Below are positions 649-45,057 of a stretch of DNA of 54,593 bases, one piece after another. This DNA comes from a virus, in IMG/VR virus record IMGVR_UViG_3300025769_000151, positions 1 to 54,593 of that record. One strand, written 5' to 3'. Within the stretch, counting starts at the first letter, position 1, and each line of letters starts with the position of its first letter. A program made the translations under genes and the position numbers. The notes beneath the pieces were generated by a model that was given only the letters and a program-made list of their open reading frames with translations, did no database searches and was not told the origin of the DNA.

Positions 649-3600
649 TGGCTATTGATAAACTGACACCTCGTTATCTGAACTTGGATGACGACGAGCG
701 ATTGGTGCAAGCTGTCCAGATGACAGATGCCCTGAATGTCGACATCTCTGTGGACGACGAAGAGGATGCTGGTGTCATCAAGCAGGCTCAGGGAAACAGG
801 CAGGGACGTGCTAGGAACGTTTCTGACAACCTACCCTCAGGGGTTAACCATGTAATCTCCAGCATCAACTACGACGCAGGAGGGGTGGTATTCTACTACG
901 TCTGGAACAGCGATAACGACCACGGCGTCTACATGTACGACACAGCGCAGCACGACTTCGTGAAGTTGTACGAGAGCAGCGCACTTGCTTTTGAGAAGAA
1001 CTCTCACATCCAGAGCGAGGTTGTGAAGATGGGTAACGGGGACCTCCTGTTGTACTTCACAGATGGTAACACTGAGCCAAAAAAAATAAACGTCAGCAGG
1101 CTTCTATCGGCTTCCTACGACGCATCCATTGATACGTCTACCGTTGCGTTGAATGCAATTACTGTGTGCAAGAGGCCACCAATGAGGCCACCAACCTTTA
1201 CCTTTGTACAGGCTGGCGAGGCTGAGACCGTTGTGAATAGAATCGTCGACAACGTGTTTCAGTTCGCCGCCCAATACGTCTACGTGGACGGAGAGGTGTC
1301 TGCCATCGGGCCTTACTCGAAGCTTTCGTATTACGAAGACCACTTCAACCCAACAGGCACCATGACCGACCTGTACCTGACGCAGTTTGATGCGATTGAG
1401 GTCTCGGTTGAAAAGGCTGGGCTGAACGACGACACTGGCGCGAATGTAGACGGAGATGTAAAAGCTGTACGGTTCCTTGCGAGGAACGGAAACACTGGGG
1501 CTTGGCATGTCTTTGGTGAGAGGAACACCTCTTACAATAGCACCGTTGCACAAGACACCTTTACAAACTCCAAGGCCTATAGGATTATTGGTGACGCAGA
1601 AACAAACAAACTGTTTGACAACGTGCCCTACAAGGCTACGTCTCTTTGCGTTGCTGAGAACAGGCTGTTCTTCGGGAACTACGTGGATGGTTACGACGCC
1701 ACGACTTGGCCAAATGTAATTAAGAAGAATGCAGGCCTGAGCACCCACTCTTTCCCTGTGGAAACAGGCATTGAGGAACTCGCGGTCAACCTAGGTGGCG
1801 ACGACTTCCCCGCTAACTATCTAAACGAGATAGAACATGCCTACAGGTCTCTTGAGACGCACAGGCAGCAGTACGAACCATTTGTAGCGATGGAGCCTCG
1901 TTCTGAAAATAGTCTTGCACAAGACCCAAACCTCGGCACTGCAGATAGCTTGGGTGGGTACTTCGTGCAGGCGAAGGGCTCTAACTCCCCCGACGACTCG
2001 GGTGAGTTTTTTGGCGGAGATACAACCAAAGTGCCTTGGGCTATTTCAAGTTCGGGTGACACAGGCGAAGCCGGACCAATCGAACCCAACATGGCTTGGG
2101 GTATGGGCAACTCAAACCGAATCGAAGTCGTACTTGACATGGACCAAATCCCTGTTGATGGATATGGTGTTTCTGGTCAGGTAGGTCTTACTTGGGCTGT
2201 TGAAGGTTCAAGGGCTATGATTATCCCAAACTACCGAAACCAAACGGGAAAGATAGAGTACGATAGAAGGTTCAAACCATTCCCCGAGGGCACAGAAACT
2301 GGCTCAGACAACTCTGTACAGACGGAGAAGTTTAAGCTTTTTCACGGGGGTGACTCAATCGCCTCAGCCGATGACCTTAACCTAGACGAAAATGTTTATG
2401 GATACTTCAAGGTCTGTGGTATTGCAGGTATCAACTGGGGTTCCGGAACTGACCAGAGTGTAACGATTGACACTCAAGCCGCCATGACAAGGACCGAGAT
2501 TGCTCAGGCTCTCGCTGACAAAATTATGGAACAGCAGGTGGGCTTCGCTGTAGGCGGAAACGCTTTTGCTACAGCCCACGGAAACCACTACAGGAGAAAC
2601 GTCGCTTTGTTCGCTACGATTGACAGAAATGACCAGTCAAAGATGTGCAGGTACCTCCTGACGAACAATGGCAACAACAACGGTCAGGCGATGAACTTTA
2701 GAGCTACTACGGCTTTTGTAGTAGGCGCAGGTGGCACGAGTGTTCAACTGCACGTTCAGTATCAGCTCGACTCTCTGAACATGACATTCAACAGAGTTGC
2801 ACATGCAGGACCAGCAATTCGTGTCACAGGAGCGGGCGGTGTTGGTGGGCTTCAGCAGCAGTTGCAGCCTCAAGGGCTAGACACGACAACACCCCTTGAG
2901 GACGGTAACATCGTCTTGGAGATGACCAGAACTGGGAATGGCATTGACGGGGCTGAGGGCGGAGGAGGAGCAGAGGACCTGTACCATAGTGCAATTCTAG
3001 ACTGGAACTCTAGCGAAAAGGAGGGGAATATATCTTTCACCACTAGCGTATCTAGCGCTGGCGACATCGGAGTCAACAGGCTCACGTTTAGGTCAGGCGC
3101 CCACCACCCACTTGGCGTCGTCTTCTATGACCACAGAAACAGAAGCAGCAATGTAAACCTGCTTCCAGAATCTTACGTCCCGTTCTCAGGTTCAGCAGAC
3201 TCACCCGTAGGTAACGGCAGCGATGTCCTTGTACCTTACGACATCGACGTAAACTTCCGCAAAGAGTTCATTCCGGACTGGGCTGAGAGGTATCAAATCG
3301 TCTACGCAGGCAACTCACTCTTCTCGGACAGCTTGACTGTGACTGTTGGTGAGGCCTTGGTCGCGGATATGTCGAAGGTTGTCATTAGAGACCCGTCCTT
3401 CAGTGATGGGGATGACGTCGACGCAGACTCTCTCGAGGAGGGTGTAACTGACGAAACCAACTTTGGCAACTTCCCCAGCATGGCGGTCGCTGAGTCTGTG
3501 GGTATCATCAACAATGCCATCTACCTCCCGATGAGATTCTTCGAGGGTAAGGTTGACTCTTACAAGGAGTCCAAGAGCGCAAGACTTAACTACGAGTTTA

Positions 3601-21784: not shown

Positions 21785-21792
21785 TATATTTG
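21785..21792 (+). promoter_or_regulatory. Bacteroidota-type -7 element TATATTTG
   Basis: TATATTTGCAAC sits just before ATG 21797, with four bases between the element and the start codon. It is nearly identical to the elements before the portal gene and before the head protein at 51436. No -33 box is present at a 17-23 bp spacing. Transcription would begin at or beside the ATG. Confidence 0.5.
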
Positions 21793-22733: not shown

Positions 22734-23253
22734 TGCTGCTGTTTAGAAGGAACATTGGCAGGATGATGAGCTTGACAAACCCTGAATCCTTGTCGTCAAC
22801 GAGCTCATGGATGGGTGGTGTCCACCCCTTGACGTTGCCGATGCCGTTTATCACAGGCTTGCGGATTGCAAAGCGGTTCTCCTTGTGCGCCTTCCAAAGA
22901 TAAGCACGCAGCTTCTCCAAGTCAAACGTAAAAGCGATGTGGAGTTTCTCTGGATTGCGGACGATGTAAACCAAGTACTCTGCCTTTGTCTTCATAATCC
23001 CACAAGGTTGCTGGGTTTTAACTGACTCGTACTCCAAGAACAGATTGACTGGCTCCTTCCTGCGCTCTGCCCAGTAGTATGCCTTGACGTCTGTCTTGAC
23101 TTCGTAGTACACGCCAGTGTTGTTGTCGAAGACATCCCAGTCACACTTGCCTGTTGAGATTGTGCAGTCACCTCCCTTTGCGTTGAGCCACGCTGCCCAA
23201 AGCTGCTCACCTAGGTCACCAACCTGCATGTCTGCAAGGAAGTTCTTACTCAT
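22669..23253 (-). CDS. PD-(D/E)XK nuclease-like protein (194 aa)
   Basis: The N-terminal 60 residues contain VGDLGEQLWAAWLNAKG with E16, then CDWDV with D38 and D40, and YEVKTD with E51 and K53. This E...D...ExK series is the core of PD-(D/E)XK restriction-like endonucleases. Such proteins in phages act as Holliday-junction or flap nucleases, or degrade host DNA. The C-terminal third is less conserved in appearance and ends in a Ser/Leu-rich tail. It overlaps the preceding gene by 4 nt and belongs to the replication-recombination block. The fold assignment is fairly safe; the substrate is unknown. Confidence 0.65.
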   Translation of the reverse strand: MSKNFLADMQVGDLGEQLWAAWLNAKGGDCTISTGKCDWDVFDNNTGVYYEVKTDVKAYYWAERRKEPVNLFLEYESVKTQQPCGIMKTKAEYLVYIVRNPEKLHIAFTFDLEKLRAYLWKAHKENRFAIRKPVINGIGNVKGWTPPIHELVDDKDSGFVKLIILPMFLLNSSNETTLSQLSLLETENRQLVEV

Positions 23254-34352: not shown

Positions 34353-34453
34353 GAGTTCTGAATGTATGATGCAAGGAGTGCAAAAATGATGAGGAGGGCT
34401 ACGCACAGGATGCAGTAGCCGATGGAGTAGTCGGTGGCTTCAAGCTGAATCAT
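34349..34453 (-). CDS. Single-helix membrane microprotein (34 aa)
   Basis: A 34-codon frame, MIQLEATDYSIGYCILCVAL followed by a hydrophobic run to ASYIQNS. The transmembrane helix spans about residues 11-30 with two cysteines. It is coupled by ATGA at both ends, to the preceding and the following genes, a strong sign that it is translated. No family recognised. Confidence 0.5.
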   Translation of the reverse strand: MIQLEATDYSIGYCILCVALLIIFALLASYIQNS

Positions 34454-34728
34454 GCCTCGATGGTTTCGGGTTGTGCTTCCATCTCTTCCACGTAGTCGCG
34501 CCATTGTTGTGCGAAGCGGTCGATTTGCCATTGCTCGCTGATGGACACGGCTATCGCGTCGAGGAACTTGTGGTCGTCCGTGAACGTCCGAACGTGGATG
34601 GTGATGACGGGCTTGTCAGCGTTCCAATGCTCCCAACGCATCGAGGGCGAGTGCCCCTTCATGGTGAGCCAATTCAAAGCGTCTGCGAGAGTTTGAGCCG
34701 TCTCGGGGCTGTACTTTAGATGTTCCAT
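34450..34728 (-). CDS. Hypothetical protein (92 aa)
   Basis: Starts MEHLKYSPETAQTLADALNW. An alpha/beta mix with VITIHVRTFTDDHKFLDAIA and a C-terminal helix (WQIDRFAQQWRDYVEEME). It is the first gene after the left-hand tRNA-like element, 23 nt from it. No family recognised. Confidence 0.55.
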   Translation of the reverse strand: MEHLKYSPETAQTLADALNWLTMKGHSPSMRWEHWNADKPVITIHVRTFTDDHKFLDAIAVSISEQWQIDRFAQQWRDYVEEMEAQPETIEA

Positions 34729-34751: not shown

Positions 34752-34817
34752 GGTGCAGGGGGAGTCGAACCCCCGACGCCCAAGGATAACCCTCGTATAG
34801 CGTCCTCCAAGTACACC
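34752..34817 (-). ncRNA. tRNA-like structure 1 (no standard anticodon arm)
   Basis: On the minus strand GGTGTA (34817-34812) pairs with TGCACC (34757-34752) as a 6-bp acceptor-like stem. A textbook T arm precedes the 3' strand: GGGGG, loop TTCGACT, CCCCC. Directly before it, GACGC (34804-34800) pairs with GCGTC (34779-34775), and inside that CGAGG pairs with CCTTG. There is no normal D arm, and the inner loop can be drawn as GGTTATC, lacking U33 and purine 37, so decoding is unlikely. The T arm and acceptor could still be seen by RNase P or RNase Z. It sits 27 nt after the end of the 149-residue gene. Confidence 0.5.
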
Positions 34818-34844
34818 TGTGGTCTACATCCTAACTTAGTCCAC

Positions 34845-35294
34845 TTATGCGGTCAACTCAGCGACCATATCCTCTGCGATTTGCTCCTCCAAGGAGGCGA
34901 GCAACTCGGTGGCAGTCATCTGCACAGGGGCTTCGAGCAGGAACTCAACGACGGCCACAACGCGTTGGGCAAAGCGTCGCTTGGCCTTGGGTGTGTGCCC
35001 GACCTTGAAGGTGGCTTGCAATCGCTCCTCGATGTCGCGGAGGTCGATGGTTGACTTGCCGACCTTGAACTGAATGAGCACAGGGTGCGACAGGTTGGTG
35101 AAGCGTGCGCCTGTCTGCTTCTGCAAGGACAGGTAGCGGAACAAGCGGTTGAGCATCGTGCCTACGACGAGGTCGCGGGCTTGCTTGTTGTTGGTGTCGA
35201 GGTCGTAGCTGAACTCGAAGCAGTTAGACAAGGCGACTTCGTGGTTGTCGCGGGTCGTGGTGTATGCCTGAAAGGCGGTTGCAGTAAACAACAT
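34845..35294 (-). CDS. Hypothetical protein bracketed by tRNA-like elements (149 aa)
   Basis: Start at ATG 35294 (MLFTATAFQAYTTTRDNHEV), 35 nt after the right tRNA-like element; the stop is 27 nt before the left one. The middle has LVVGTMLNRLFRYLSLQKQT and FTNLSHPVLIQFKVGKSTID. The C-terminal half is helical and Ala/Glu-rich (TATELLASLEEQIAED). No family recognised. It is the first protein gene of the early arm and the only one separated on both sides by tRNA-like structures, so it may be expressed differently from the rest. Confidence 0.6.
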   Translation of the reverse strand: MLFTATAFQAYTTTRDNHEVALSNCFEFSYDLDTNNKQARDLVVGTMLNRLFRYLSLQKQTGARFTNLSHPVLIQFKVGKSTIDLRDIEERLQATFKVGHTPKAKRRFAQRVVAVVEFLLEAPVQMTATELLASLEEQIAEDMVAELTA

Positions 35295-35329
35295 GAAATT
35301 GAAGTTTGTGTGCCGAAGCACGGGTTAGA

Positions 35330-35388
35330 ACAACGGGAGGGAGTCGAACCCTCACCACCCTACCGAGGTGGCACGCCTGTGCCGTTGC
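35330..35388 (-). ncRNA. tRNA-like structure 2, minimal cloverleaf
   Basis: On the minus strand GCAACGG (35388-35382) pairs with CCGTTGT (35336-35330), seven pairs with a G-U at the end. It is followed by a 3-bp mini D arm CAC-AGGC-GTG, and then an anticodon-like arm CCACC, loop TCGGTAG, GGTGG. After one base comes a perfect T arm GAGGG, TTCGACT, CCCTC. All four arms are present in only 59 nt. Positions 8-9 are missing, the variable loop is one base, and base 33 is C instead of U. The nominal anticodon would be GGT (Thr). This is smaller than bacterial tRNAs; a processing signal or tRNA mimic is more likely than a decoder. Confidence 0.55.
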
Positions 35389-35657
35389 TGACGCCATGGC
35401 GGGTGGATAGCCCCGCAGTCCCAAGCTGGCTTGTATCATGGCGGTGTAGTCAATAGTGTTTGCGTTACTTCTTCCTCCATCCACGCCCTGCGGTGTCGGC
35501 TCGGGGTGTAGGTAGTTTCATCATGTCAAAGAACTGCGCTCTTCGGTGAGTGGTGTGTGCCCACCATGCTTTCTGCATACATGGTGCGAGGTGCGCTCCG
35601 TGGAGCGGGTCGTTTAGTCAGCGACAGGCAGTACGTCAATAGTCCGAGGGCGGTTGC

Positions 35658-35666
35658 CGTTGCAAC
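35658..35666. repeat. CGTTGCAAC repeat, copy 1
   Basis: CGTTGCAAC recurs at 35829-35837, where it is extended to the perfect palindrome CGTTGCAACG. The two copies are 171 bp apart in the non-coding early leader, as expected for a protein-binding site used twice. Confidence 0.4.
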
Positions 35667-35828
35667 ACGAGAGCCATAGTAGTATAGGGGGGTTGAGCCA
35701 CCAAATTGTCAAGCAACTTTTAGACAGAGAGCATGATTCAATCGACGAACAGCCAAATAGCTTCGACGAGAAAATCAGAATTTTAACATTTGTGTGTTTG
35801 CACAGGTCAGAAAAATGTTGTAGACGCG

Positions 35829-35838
35829 CGTTGCAACG
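35829..35838. repeat. CGTTGCAACG palindrome, copy 2
   Basis: A 10-bp perfect palindrome, sharing nine bases with copy 1 at 35658. It is next to the AT-rich segment and to a GC-rich hairpin, a layout seen at some phage origins or operators. Confidence 0.4.
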
Positions 35839-36204
35839 TCCGTGCCAACCCCGTTGGTGGGGTCAGTTTGGGATGGTTGGACCTAGGGGATGGGGTTGTT
35901 CGGCCACCCTGCATAGGTAGTCCAACTTGCTATTGACAATTCACCGAATCGTGTTGACAAAAACGCTAGAAGTTTCTGCAATACAAACGGGTAAACCCTA
36001 CCCCCCCACTAGGAATAATCGACTTCCGTATGACGTGACGCACGTGTACACATAGACATAATCCCCACCCCACAAATATCTCAGGACTTTTTCAGGGAGA
36101 GGGTCAGGACAAGGATTGACAAATCACATGATACTATCAGGCAATGGGCTGACATGTATGTGTTTCCTTTTTGAGCTGTACAGAATCGACTTTTAGCCCA
36201 CAAG

Positions 36205-36278
36205 TACTCCCGGCAGGACTCGAACCTGCAACCTGCACATTAGAAGTGTGCTGCTCTTTCCAGTTGAGCTACGGGAGC
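36205..36278 (-). tRNA. tRNA-Arg (anticodon UCU)
   Basis: A canonical 74-nt cloverleaf on the minus strand. It has acceptor GCTCCCG with CGGGAGT, D arm GCTC/GAGC, and anticodon arm GCACA/TGTGC around CTTCTAA, giving anticodon TCT. The variable loop is five bases and the T arm is GCAGG-TTCGAGT-CCTGC. No CCA is encoded. It would read AGA (and perhaps AGG) codons, which are visibly frequent in the late structural genes. The start lies 13 nt after the leftward promoter element, so it is the first product of the early transcript. Confidence 0.95.
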
Positions 36279-36291
36279 ATATCGTTTGACA

Positions 36292-36323
36292 CAAAGGTAC
36301 TTACAAGTTCTCGAGTAAACAAA
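36292..36323 (-). promoter_or_regulatory. Leftward early promoter
   Basis: On the minus strand TTTG (36323-36320) and TACCTTTG (36299-36292) are separated by 20 bp, a full match to the Bacteroidota consensus TTTG-N17-23-TAnnTTTG. It reads into tRNA-Arg and the whole early arm. It is paired back to back with a rightward promoter that has the same spacing. Confidence 0.75.
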
Positions 36324-36537: not shown

Positions 36538-36708
36538 ATGTACATCCCTCAGTTAGACCCTGAGTTTCTGGAGGTGCTCCTGAAAGCATCTAAGAAACAA
36601 AAGAACAATGGTTCTGCTCGTGCGCGGAGACGTGCAATGGAGAGAACCCTCAACAAATTCTACGGCAATGCAACCAGTAAAGAAGGACAAGAAGACGGGG
36701 CTTCCTAA
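36538..36708 (+). CDS. Small basic protein (56 aa)
   Basis: The frame starts MYIPQLDPEFLEVLLKASKK and then becomes very basic (SARARRRAMERTLNKFYGNA). ATG 36538 follows the TATATTTA element. The 3' end overlaps the next gene by 41 nt in another frame. No family recognised. A small nucleic-acid-binding or virion-packaged protein would fit the charge. Confidence 0.55.
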   Translation: MYIPQLDPEFLEVLLKASKKQKNNGSARARRRAMERTLNKFYGNATSKEGQEDGAS

Positions 36709-37219
36709 GAAGTATCTCGACGGTTCACCAAATCCGGCGGCAAGAGCCGAAACCATCAAGGAGGGCAAGAAGGCCTACGAAGAAGGACGCAAGCTCCCCG
36801 ACAGCTACTTTGATGAACGACAGAAGTATGGTGTTGGTGGCGCAGTAGTTAGCGGCGCCTTGTTGGAGGGCATTGGTCAGGGCGCTGGTCAGGCTCTTGG
36901 AGCGGCTGGCGTGGGTGCCGTCTCAGAGTTATTGAAGAAGAGAAAGAAGAAAGAGTACAAGAAGGGTGGTAAGGTGAAGAAAGGCAAGGGGGCCAAGGAG
37001 GGTCGCAAGCCTTTGAACGCGTCCACCATCGCTTCGCTCAAGAAGAAGGCCAAGTCATCCGGCAAGTCTCTTGCCACACTCAAGAAGGTTTACCGTAGAG
37101 GTCAGGGTGCGTATCTGTCCAGTGGTTCAAGACCCAAGACAAGTATGGCAGCATGGGCCATGGGAAGGGTCAACAGCTTCATCAAGGGCTCGAAGAAGCA
37201 CGACACGGACTTACGATAA
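36668..37219 (+). CDS. Basic Gly-Gly motif protein with DUF5824-like C-terminus (183 aa)
   Basis: I start at ATG 36668 (MQPVKKDKKTGLPKKYLDGS) because the 20 residues before it are unlike the rest and read through the preceding gene. A small-residue segment (VVSGALLEGIGQGAGQALGA) could enter membranes. KEYKKGGKVKKGK carries the shared Gly-Gly motif. The C-terminal 55 residues (LKKVYRRGQGAYLSSGSRP, then AAWAMGRVNSFI) match a pattern known from phage and large-virus proteins, which I think is DUF5824. Probably a minor virion protein; function unknown. Confidence 0.65.
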   Translation: MQPVKKDKKTGLPKKYLDGSPNPAARAETIKEGKKAYEEGRKLPDSYFDERQKYGVGGAVVSGALLEGIGQGAGQALGAAGVGAVSELLKKRKKKEYKKGGKVKKGKGAKEGRKPLNASTIASLKKKAKSSGKSLATLKKVYRRGQGAYLSSGSRPKTSMAAWAMGRVNSFIKGSKKHDTDLR

Positions 37220-37252: not shown

Positions 37253-37570
37253 ATGCCACAAGCAAAAAAGAAAGCCAAAACCTACAAAACCTACGCCGCT
37301 GGCGGTACGGTTAATGAGATGACCTTCGACCAAGTCAGAGAAGGCATGGCCAACGGAAGTATCAAGCTCGCCAAGAAGTCTTTTGCCTACGGAGGTAAGA
37401 TGTACAAGCAGGGCGGTAAGCCCGACTACCTCGACCTCGACAAGGACGGCAACAAGAAGGAGCTCATGAAGGACGCAGCCAGTGACGCACCTTCAGGTAA
37501 GAAGGGCATGGCAGTCCCCAAGGCTAAGAAGGGGATGCAAGTAAAGCTGAAGAAGAACAAGAAGAAGTAA
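37253..37570 (+). CDS. Lys/Gly-rich Gly-Gly motif protein (105 aa)
   Basis: Starts MPQAKKKAKTYKTYAAGGTV and includes FAYGGKMYKQGGKPDYLDLD, the densest occurrence of the shared aromatic/Gly-Gly motif. LDLDKDGNKKE looks like a calcium loop. The C-terminus is a Lys-rich tail. It shares one base with the next gene. Such proteins are probably packaged with DNA or attached to the head, by inference from charge and neighbourhood. Confidence 0.6.
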   Translation: MPQAKKKAKTYKTYAAGGTVNEMTFDQVREGMANGSIKLAKKSFAYGGKMYKQGGKPDYLDLDKDGNKKELMKDAASDAPSGKKGMAVPKAKKGMQVKLKKNKKK

Positions 37571-44175: not shown

Positions 44176-45057
44176 ATGGGAACATCACTATCAGGCACTC
44201 AAATTAAGAACTCGTATGTTGGAATCCTCAAGGCTTCTGACAATACTGCTATCAGTAGTTCCCTGAAAACCATCACCGATGGGCAGGGTAACGACACCGC
44301 GCTGTCTGTGTCTACAGCTCAGGTAAAGGTAACGAATCTTCTGATTGATTCACCCGCAACCTCTACAAGCGACCAAATCCTAGTACGGGATTCCTCGACT
44401 GGATTGATTAGCACGCGCACCCTCCCCAACCTGAAGACTGTTCAGATTAGCACCAGCTCAGGTACTACCACTAATGGAAGTGGGAGCGCCATCGGCGTCA
44501 CAGTCACAGACTCTGGAGGTCACGCATCTACGGCCAACTTCCAGACAGGTGCGAACATGACCATCCGCTCTAGCGGAGCTCAGATGTCTTTCAAGTACGA
44601 CAACAGAACGACTGTAAACGTAACGGCTGCTAAGACCATCAACGCCTCCACAGAGGGAGGTGGTACAGTGTTCTTGGACTGCGCTAGTCTTAGCGGGGGT
44701 GCCCTTACGCTACCTGCGGCATCAACAGGCAGGTTCTTGCGTATCCTCGTCGATGTAGGCTCCAACACCGCATGCAACATCAACGCAGCGTCAGGTGACT
44801 ACTTCTACGGCGCAGTCACGCACGTCTCTACTACTGGAAACAAGACTGGTGTTCAGACTGTAACCCGTGCTACTGCATCGGCTTCTGTCTCTACATTCAA
44901 CCAGCTCACGCTGGACCAAGACAGTGATAACCTCGGAGGAGCAGTAGGGAGCTTCCTTGAGCTTACATGCTATGACGACGCCGGATGGCACGTCAGCGGA
45001 AAGCTCATTGGAAACTCTACCAACCCAACAGGCATCCTCGTAATCAACGGACAATAA
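44176..45057 (+). CDS. Fibre-like structural protein (293 aa)
   Basis: The start is ATG 44176 (MGTSLSGTQIKNSYVGILKA), set by the promoter at 44149 and by the typical fibre N-terminus. The first 60 residues resemble the N-terminal region of marine phage fibre and structural proteins (IKxxYxGxLKxxDN, then TDGxGNDTxLSxS). The rest is a Ser/Thr/Gly-rich beta structure with a C-terminal domain (ASVSTFNQLTLDQDSDNLGG). It shares one base with the next gene. Probably binds the host surface or decorates the virion. Confidence 0.65.
   Translation: MGTSLSGTQIKNSYVGILKASDNTAISSSLKTITDGQGNDTALSVSTAQVKVTNLLIDSPATSTSDQILVRDSSTGLISTRTLPNLKTVQISTSSGTTTNGSGSAIGVTVTDSGGHASTANFQTGANMTIRSSGAQMSFKYDNRTTVNVTAAKTINASTEGGGTVFLDCASLSGGALTLPAASTGRFLRILVDVGSNTACNINAASGDYFYGAVTHVSTTGNKTGVQTVTRATASASVSTFNQLTLDQDSDNLGGAVGSFLELTCYDDAGWHVSGKLIGNSTNPTGILVINGQ

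Follow-up and report, generated by a model that had tools for sequence, protein, structure and literature searches.

Layout of the early module

The sequence analysed was positions 1 to 54,593 of the IMG/VR record IMGVR_UViG_3300025769_000151 (the window), and the module described here is located on its minus strand at approximately 34.7-36.3 kb. An original prediction made for this region had proposed the order promoter, tRNA-Arg, leader, tRNA-like element (TL2), 149-residue gene, second tRNA-like element (TL1) and packed genes, and each of these parts was located. In the direction of transcription the features are:

36292-36323, minus strand: candidate promoter of the Bacteroidota type, TTTG-N20-TACCTTTG, for the leftward early transcript; conserved in aligned relatives
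36204-36278, minus strand: canonical tRNA-Arg (anticodon TCT), identified by ARAGORN and Rfam (70.2 bits)
35390-36086, minus strand: structured non-coding RNA of ~0.7 kb with approximate borders, delineated by conservation and covariation
35392-35443, minus strand: CGCCATG...CATGGCG, the last helix of the structured RNA, enclosing two hairpins and showing compensatory changes; abuts TL2
35329-35389, minus strand: TL2, a tRNA mimic with acceptor, short D-hairpin, a UCGGUA-loop hairpin replacing the anticodon arm, and T-arm
35310-35321, minus strand: small hairpin GUGC-UUCG-GCAC in the spacer from TL2 to the ATG, with compensatory changes
34845-35294, minus strand: 149-aa ORF, under coding constraint
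34752-34818, minus strand: TL1, a tRNA mimic with acceptor, a D-loop with GG and no D-stem, a hairpin of very variable length, and T-arm
34450-34728, minus strand: next early gene, 92 aa, with its start codon 23 nt past TL1

TL2 is separated from the ATG of the 149-aa ORF by 35 nt, the stop codon from TL1 by 26 nt and TL1 from the next ATG by 23 nt; the predicted spacing of 35 nt before the gene is therefore correct, whereas that after it had been given as 27 nt. A promoter scan of the window identified 36292-36323 as the only two-box TTTG/TACCTTTG site on the minus strand outside coding DNA, the sole further two-box match (at 22902) lying inside coding DNA, and no second two-box promoter was found between the pieces of the module.

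From the promoter type and the relatives, whose contigs are metagenomic, we infer a Bacteroidota-type bacterium as the host. The phage terminase shares 40-47% identity with its counterparts in Flavobacterium elemo phages and in an uncultured podovirus from Manatee Spring. Changes in the 149-aa ORF among relatives fall mostly at third codon positions, indicating coding constraint. The protein gave no Pfam match over the cut-off and no relatives in PHROGs, NCBIfam or the PDB, and its AlphaFold model was poor (pLDDT 54.5).

Folds of TL2 and TL1

The TL2 acceptor comprises 7 bp (GCAACGG/CCGUUGU; 8 bp counting A-U) and is followed by a D-hairpin of 3 bp (CAC-AGGC-GUG), a middle hairpin with the loop UCGGUA(G) and the T-arm GAGGG-UUCGACU-CCCUC. 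In TL1, the acceptor AGGUGUA/UGCACCA is paired at 6 of 7 positions and is combined with the middle hairpin GACGC..GCGUC and the T-arm GGGGG-UUCGACU-CCCCC. Both elements are thus tRNA-like when this is defined by an acceptor stacked on a T-arm (7+5 bp) and a T-loop UUCRANN. Neither is a tRNA by the gathering score of RF00005 or by an ARAGORN call with a 7-nt anticodon loop, and no anticodon loop is conserved. The sub-threshold Rfam matches of the two were to tRNA-Sec (22.7 bits), mascRNA-menRNA (19.7 bits, TL2) and tmRNA (18.1 bits).

The features retained are the acceptor/T-arm stack (12 bp), the T-loop UUCGANU (except in the TL2 counterpart of L101, described below) and GG in the D-loop. The anticodon arm is lost and replaced by arbitrary hairpins, the TL1 insert ranging from 3 to ~40 nt among close relatives; therefore, TL2 and TL1 cannot decode. 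The acceptor/T-arm stack and the elbow formed by D-loop and T-loop are the features by which RNase P, RNase Z and other proteins that bind the elbow recognise an RNA.

Exactly three copies of the T-arm core GGTTCRANTCC are present in the 54.6 kb (0.26 expected), each of them at a tRNA or tRNA-like element of the module. A stringent search that required a 7-bp acceptor closing directly on a T-arm of 5 bp, which TL2 passes and the TL1 of the window fails, was run over 516 kb from the window phage and related phages. It returned ten modules not called by ARAGORN, TL2 included, as against none in six shuffles of the 516 kb; some of these ten are situated within tRNA clusters and probably represent tRNAs missed by ARAGORN. 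Single-sequence folding energies were only weakly unusual (z of -0.8 to -2.0), and the case for the folds therefore rests on comparison between relatives. When intrinsic terminators were sought as G+C hairpins with a T-run behind them, the T-arm of TL2 was flagged with the tail CCGTTGTTCT, which is the acceptor strand; such flags were about as frequent in the region as chance predicts (4 against 2.2), and TL1 has no T-run.

Conservation and covariation

Ten contigs were found by the 149-aa gene they carry; the gene next to it led to another (L083), and a leader motif to one more (L101). A profile search yielded no additional relatives. Contig L103 was judged a chance match. TL2 is present in 12 of 12 and TL1 in 11 of 11 contigs that reach the respective site, down to 59% protein identity, counts that are not independent as several contigs are near-identical. 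According to the original prediction, loss of the elements from close relatives that keep the gene would have counted against it; no such loss was seen, both elements being present in every relative covering the site. The predicted tRNA-like folds flanking the gene are real and have been selectively maintained across relatives.

Stems change in a compensatory manner in both elements. The TL2 T-arm appears as GAGGG/CCCTC, GGGGG/CCCCC or GTGGG/CCCAC, and its D-hairpin as CAC/GTG, AAC/GTT or, in L083, CCC/GGG. The TL1 acceptor alternates between AGGTGTA/TGCACC and AGGTGTG/CACACC, with an A-A mismatch at position 1-72 in most relatives, and its hairpin is found as GACGC/GCGTC, GATGC/GCATC, GACGT/ACGTC or GGGGT/GCCCC. 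Over the alignments, 98.4% of cells are paired for TL2 (94.7% in shuffles; at most 58% with partners slid) and 94.9% for TL1 (89.3% in shuffles; at most 60% with partners slid), values reached by 0 of 500 shuffles in either case.

The most distant relative, L101 (59% amino acid identity), has both folds on the same plan and with different sequence: the acceptor is GGGAAGC/GCTTCTC at the TL2 site and AAGGGGG/CCCCCTT, accompanied by a 4-bp D-stem, at the TL1 site. Its TL2 counterpart keeps the three-way fold and has the T-loop UUCGCGC in place of UUCRANN, a departure that speaks against interpreting the elements strictly as RNase P substrates.

When viral contigs were scanned for exact TL1 and TL2 sequence motifs, true matches came solely from this phage group. 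The other TL1 motif matches were without a T-arm, and the other TL2-type matches were mostly real tRNAs. On L011 (~200-490), 3' of the 149-aa gene, a second, clearly different TL1-type element follows the first by ~160 nt, such that two mimics stand in tandem.

A structured RNA upstream of TL2

The 0.8 kb between the tRNA-Arg and TL2, originally described as an untranslated leader, proved to contain a conserved structured RNA: the consensus fold of its 3' half has 84 pairs, 28 of them compensated, and a second alignment gave 9 of 38. From approximately 36086 to TL2, conserved blocks follow each other in the same order even in L101, and stems co-vary around invariant loops. One such stem is GTCG/CGAC, GCGG/CCGC or GGCC/GGCC around the invariant loop CTGACTAAA, and another is CACCATG/CATGGTG in some relatives and CCCCGTG/CACGGGG in others. 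The leader differs between relatives by indels of 11, 21 and 38 nt and has no conserved frames, both of which speak against a coding role.

Rfam families, GOLLD, ROOL and OLE included, gave no match to the leader at the gathering score or at E <= 5, and blastn against named phages returned matches solely to the T-arm, in mycobacteriophage tRNA-Leu. The distribution of the structured RNA seems limited to one phage group. A scan of genome contigs with the leader motif gave 11 matches that were judged chance, none of them with the other motifs of the leader and most coding-looking. A pairing suggested by RNAalifold between GCAACGG in the leader and the 3' acceptor strand of TL2 was rejected, as these leader letters already belong to a local hairpin and the acceptor of TL2 has its partner close by.

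The tRNA-Arg had been predicted as part of the module. In the window it is indeed the first element of the transcript, and it lies beside the structured RNA in most relatives. However, in L101 the structured RNA stands together with TL2, the gene and TL1 as a cassette that has no adjacent tRNA-Arg, the tRNA-Arg of that contig being elsewhere, and the tRNA is therefore not an obligate part of the module. On L083 (~3320-3470, plus strand), a small opposite-strand ORF encoding a very basic peptide (MAKVQVSTYKKVRVKRKG...) is inserted between the tRNA-Arg and the structured RNA, which suggests that the RNA may use its own promoter; the ORF is absent in the window. The leaders of L009 and L101, two otherwise distant phages, share a hairpin extension of ~38 nt (..CTGACGTGC..CGCRTAAGACACTATCGC) that is missing in closer relatives and would lie near 35600 in the window; it may represent a peripheral domain that the structured RNA can exchange.

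Similar elements in other Bacteroidota phages

Intercistronic tRNA-like elements not called by ARAGORN were also found in the scanned relatives, in a survey that was small and covered Bacteroidota phages only. The one in Maribacter phage Panino (4941-5031) lies within a gap of 122 nt and is separated by 22 nt from the gene that follows; its counterpart in Cellulophaga phage phi14:2 is 84.5% identical. The Cellulophaga phages phi38:1 (L149, 20679-20817, minus strand) and Calle_1 (L150, 49296-49434, plus strand) share a conserved tRNA-like RNA of 139 nt, placed 28 nt before the gene for RtcB (tRNA ligase), in which a large insert replaces the anticodon arm and which is possibly an intron-bearing or regulatory tRNA. 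Calle_1 further has a TL1-type element (hit R2, 37286-37372) 24 nt before a small ORF, and the L101 contig another such element 18 nt before a gene. No such element was found in elemoA, a relative by its terminase. In MW202828 (L100), the gap that follows the first rightward early gene contains the best match for a site of this type (44480-44562, E 0.005), a multi-branched fold with a TL2-like tail and without a T-loop. The same genome has two odd tRNA-like elements (523-629 and 637-696; 47 and 37 bits with the tRNA model) that end an operon just before a terminator-like hairpin.

In the early operon of phi38:1 and Calle_1, two real tRNA-Glu genes and a tmRNA gene stand 19, 19 and 22 nt before start codons, and across several Bacteroidota phages mimics and real tRNA-Glu or tmRNA genes alike precede start codons by 10-35 nt, the distance being 10-28 nt in phages other than that of the window. 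As tRNAs and tmRNA must be cut out, this shared placement is the best independent hint that the mimics serve as punctuation.

Proposed processing and alternative explanations

The observed folds, their conservation and covariation, the loss of the decoding part, the position of the elements, the structured RNA and the similar arrangements in other phages suggest a model in which expression, cleavage, the enzymes involved and any benefit to the phage are putative. A long early transcript would start just upstream of the tRNA-Arg and run leftward. Host RNase P, acting on the 5' side, and RNase Z or an enzyme equivalent to it, acting on the 3' side, are the roles presumed for this host; both would recognise TL2 and TL1 by their acceptor/T-arm stack and elbow and cleave there. 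The products would be the tRNA-Arg, the ~0.7-kb structured RNA with its 3' end set by TL2 as mascRNA ends MALAT1, a monocistronic message that encodes the 149-aa protein and has a 5' UTR of ~35 nt, and the remaining early operon mRNA with a 5' UTR of ~23 nt, with two small tRNA-like RNAs as by-products. Retention of acceptor, T-arm and elbow with loss of the anticodon fits the constraint expected from tRNA-end processing, and on balance we lean towards TL2 and TL1 being selected processing signals at which the host tRNA-end enzymes cut. Points that weigh against the model are the T-loop of the L101 TL2 counterpart, the A-A mismatch in the TL1 acceptor of most relatives, the modest folding z-scores, the best match in MW202828 with its missing T-loop, and elemoA, which lacks such elements.

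Conserved structure by itself cannot tell cleavage from protein binding, and the mimics may instead stay uncut in the mRNA as 5'-UTR elements controlling translation or stability of the gene 23-35 nt downstream. In variants of this explanation they would be a binding site for the gene's own product or for an aminoacyl-tRNA synthetase, as at the thrS operator, or a nuclease shield. The location of both TL2 and TL1 right before start codons would suit such a role, as would the small conserved hairpin between TL2 and the ATG, the plain G+C hairpin that takes the place of a mimic, with the same CAAA...CCCATACAACATG leader, before the next gene of L083, and the TL2 counterpart of L101, whose three-way fold is kept without the T-loop consensus. 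We nevertheless regard uncut elements as unlikely, if worth serious attention, because they leave unexplained why the real tRNA-Glu and tmRNA genes of phi38:1 and Calle_1, which need excision, share such sites, and why the acceptor/T-arm half is the part retained. Rather unlikely, too, is that the mimics matter as products, namely as stable, trans-acting tRNA-like small RNAs of ~60 nt, for example decoys for host tRNA-targeting nucleases or modification enzymes. The conserved elbow features and the second TL1-type copy of L011 speak for this; however, RNAs that keep no anticodon would escape anticodon nucleases, TL1 varies freely in its middle hairpin, and a position 23-35 nt before a gene would not be needed.

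The whole leader with TL2 could also serve the ~14-kb early operon in antitermination or in the loading of polymerase, much as the put RNA of phage HK022 does, its likeness to tRNA then being incidental. A large structured RNA directly after the sole two-box leftward promoter found would agree with this, but neither TL1 on the 3' side of the gene nor the isolated mimics before single genes in other phages are explained, and we hold it to be improbable. Functionless debris, either decaying tRNA genes or remnants of an attachment site, might be suspected from the real tRNA gene nearby and from the rejection of TL2 and TL1 by ARAGORN. The attachment-site and pseudogene readings were rejected on account of the compensatory changes; presence in all site-covering relatives and full refolding on new sequence in L101 also tell against them, making decay very improbable.

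If cleavage by host enzymes at TL2 and TL1 does take place, phages would hand mRNA processing to the tRNA enzymes of the host by means of non-decoding tRNA mimics, and the mascRNA design would have two origins, one among the long non-coding RNAs of vertebrates and one among phages. The presence of isolated tRNA and tmRNA genes within phage operons would then have an explanation open to testing. The upstream structured RNA is a candidate for a new class alongside GOLLD and ROOL, the function of which is, to our knowledge, still unknown. We further propose, tentatively and with somewhat more doubt than confidence, that Bacteroidota phages generally punctuate early operons with tRNA-shaped RNA, real tRNAs, tmRNA and decoding-dead mimics being interchangeable as host-processed borders 10-35 nt before a gene, and that in this group one mimic also terminates a ~0.7-kb structured phage RNA of a new class, which would parallel MALAT1/mascRNA in a bacterial virus.

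Comparison with known systems

TL2 was compared with mascRNA and menRNA, which form the 3' ends of MALAT1 and MEN-beta (RF01684). Like TL2, these are mimics of ~58-61 nt with a 7-bp acceptor, a very short D-arm, a longer hairpin as anticodon arm and a canonical T-arm, located directly after a long structured non-coding RNA. The segment lengths and order of TL2 match human menRNA almost exactly, the arms of the latter being the acceptor at 1-7, D at 8-17 and AC at 18-34 (PMC11693755). However, TL2 belongs to a phage with a bacterial host and has a coding gene 35 nt downstream, and with 19.7 bits against a gathering score of 42.5 it is not a member of RF01684; the likeness is convergence in design and not homology or membership. 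TL1 resembles the tRNA-like domain of tmRNA in its acceptor, GG D-loop without D-stem, T-arm and non-anticodon middle helix, and its T-arm matches the tmRNA model. In contrast to tmRNA, it is without a tag frame or long permuted body and totals roughly 50-100 nt.

As in the present proposal, the M3, C4 and his RNAs bring bacterial RNase P to tRNA-like folds in phage or polycistronic RNA. The M3, C4 and polycistronic mRNA substrates are single, mostly simpler folds, whereas the phage described here has an elaborate pair of mimics flanking one gene behind a structured RNA. RNase P cleaves M3 RNA, C4 antisense RNA, and his and other polycistronic mRNAs (PMC11143913). The original prediction knew of no described phage system that isolates one early mRNA in this way; phage substrates of RNase P as such were already known (M3, C4; PMC11143913). 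The open-access literature yielded no account of a phage gene flanked by two tRNA mimics, nor of a structured phage RNA with a mimic at its end. Mitochondrial tRNA punctuation (PMC3471875) is a further point of comparison. There, tRNA folds between genes release individual mRNAs; the phage elements differ in being non-decoding mimics and only few per operon.

Giant phage RNAs include GOLLD and ROOL (PMC12286853), and a further phage ncRNA is that of ICP1 (PMC7567579). Like GOLLD and ROOL, the structured RNA described here is ~0.7-0.8 kb long, highly structured, non-coding, phage-borne and beside a tRNA gene, and its multi-helix fold is supported by covariation. It differs from them in having no Rfam match to either and in ending in a tRNA mimic.

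Other features of the window

On the plus strand, TATATTTG sites are present at 21785, 44149, 48628 and 51412, at or near gene starts and with no upstream TTTG box near the -33 spacing, and are candidates for a second (late) promoter class. A protein of 203 aa is encoded at 36608-37216 (plus strand); its last ~43 residues are 70-82% identical to Pelagibacter phage proteins and 58% identical to cyanophage ones, and this C-terminal module appears to be common to phages that seem otherwise unrelated.
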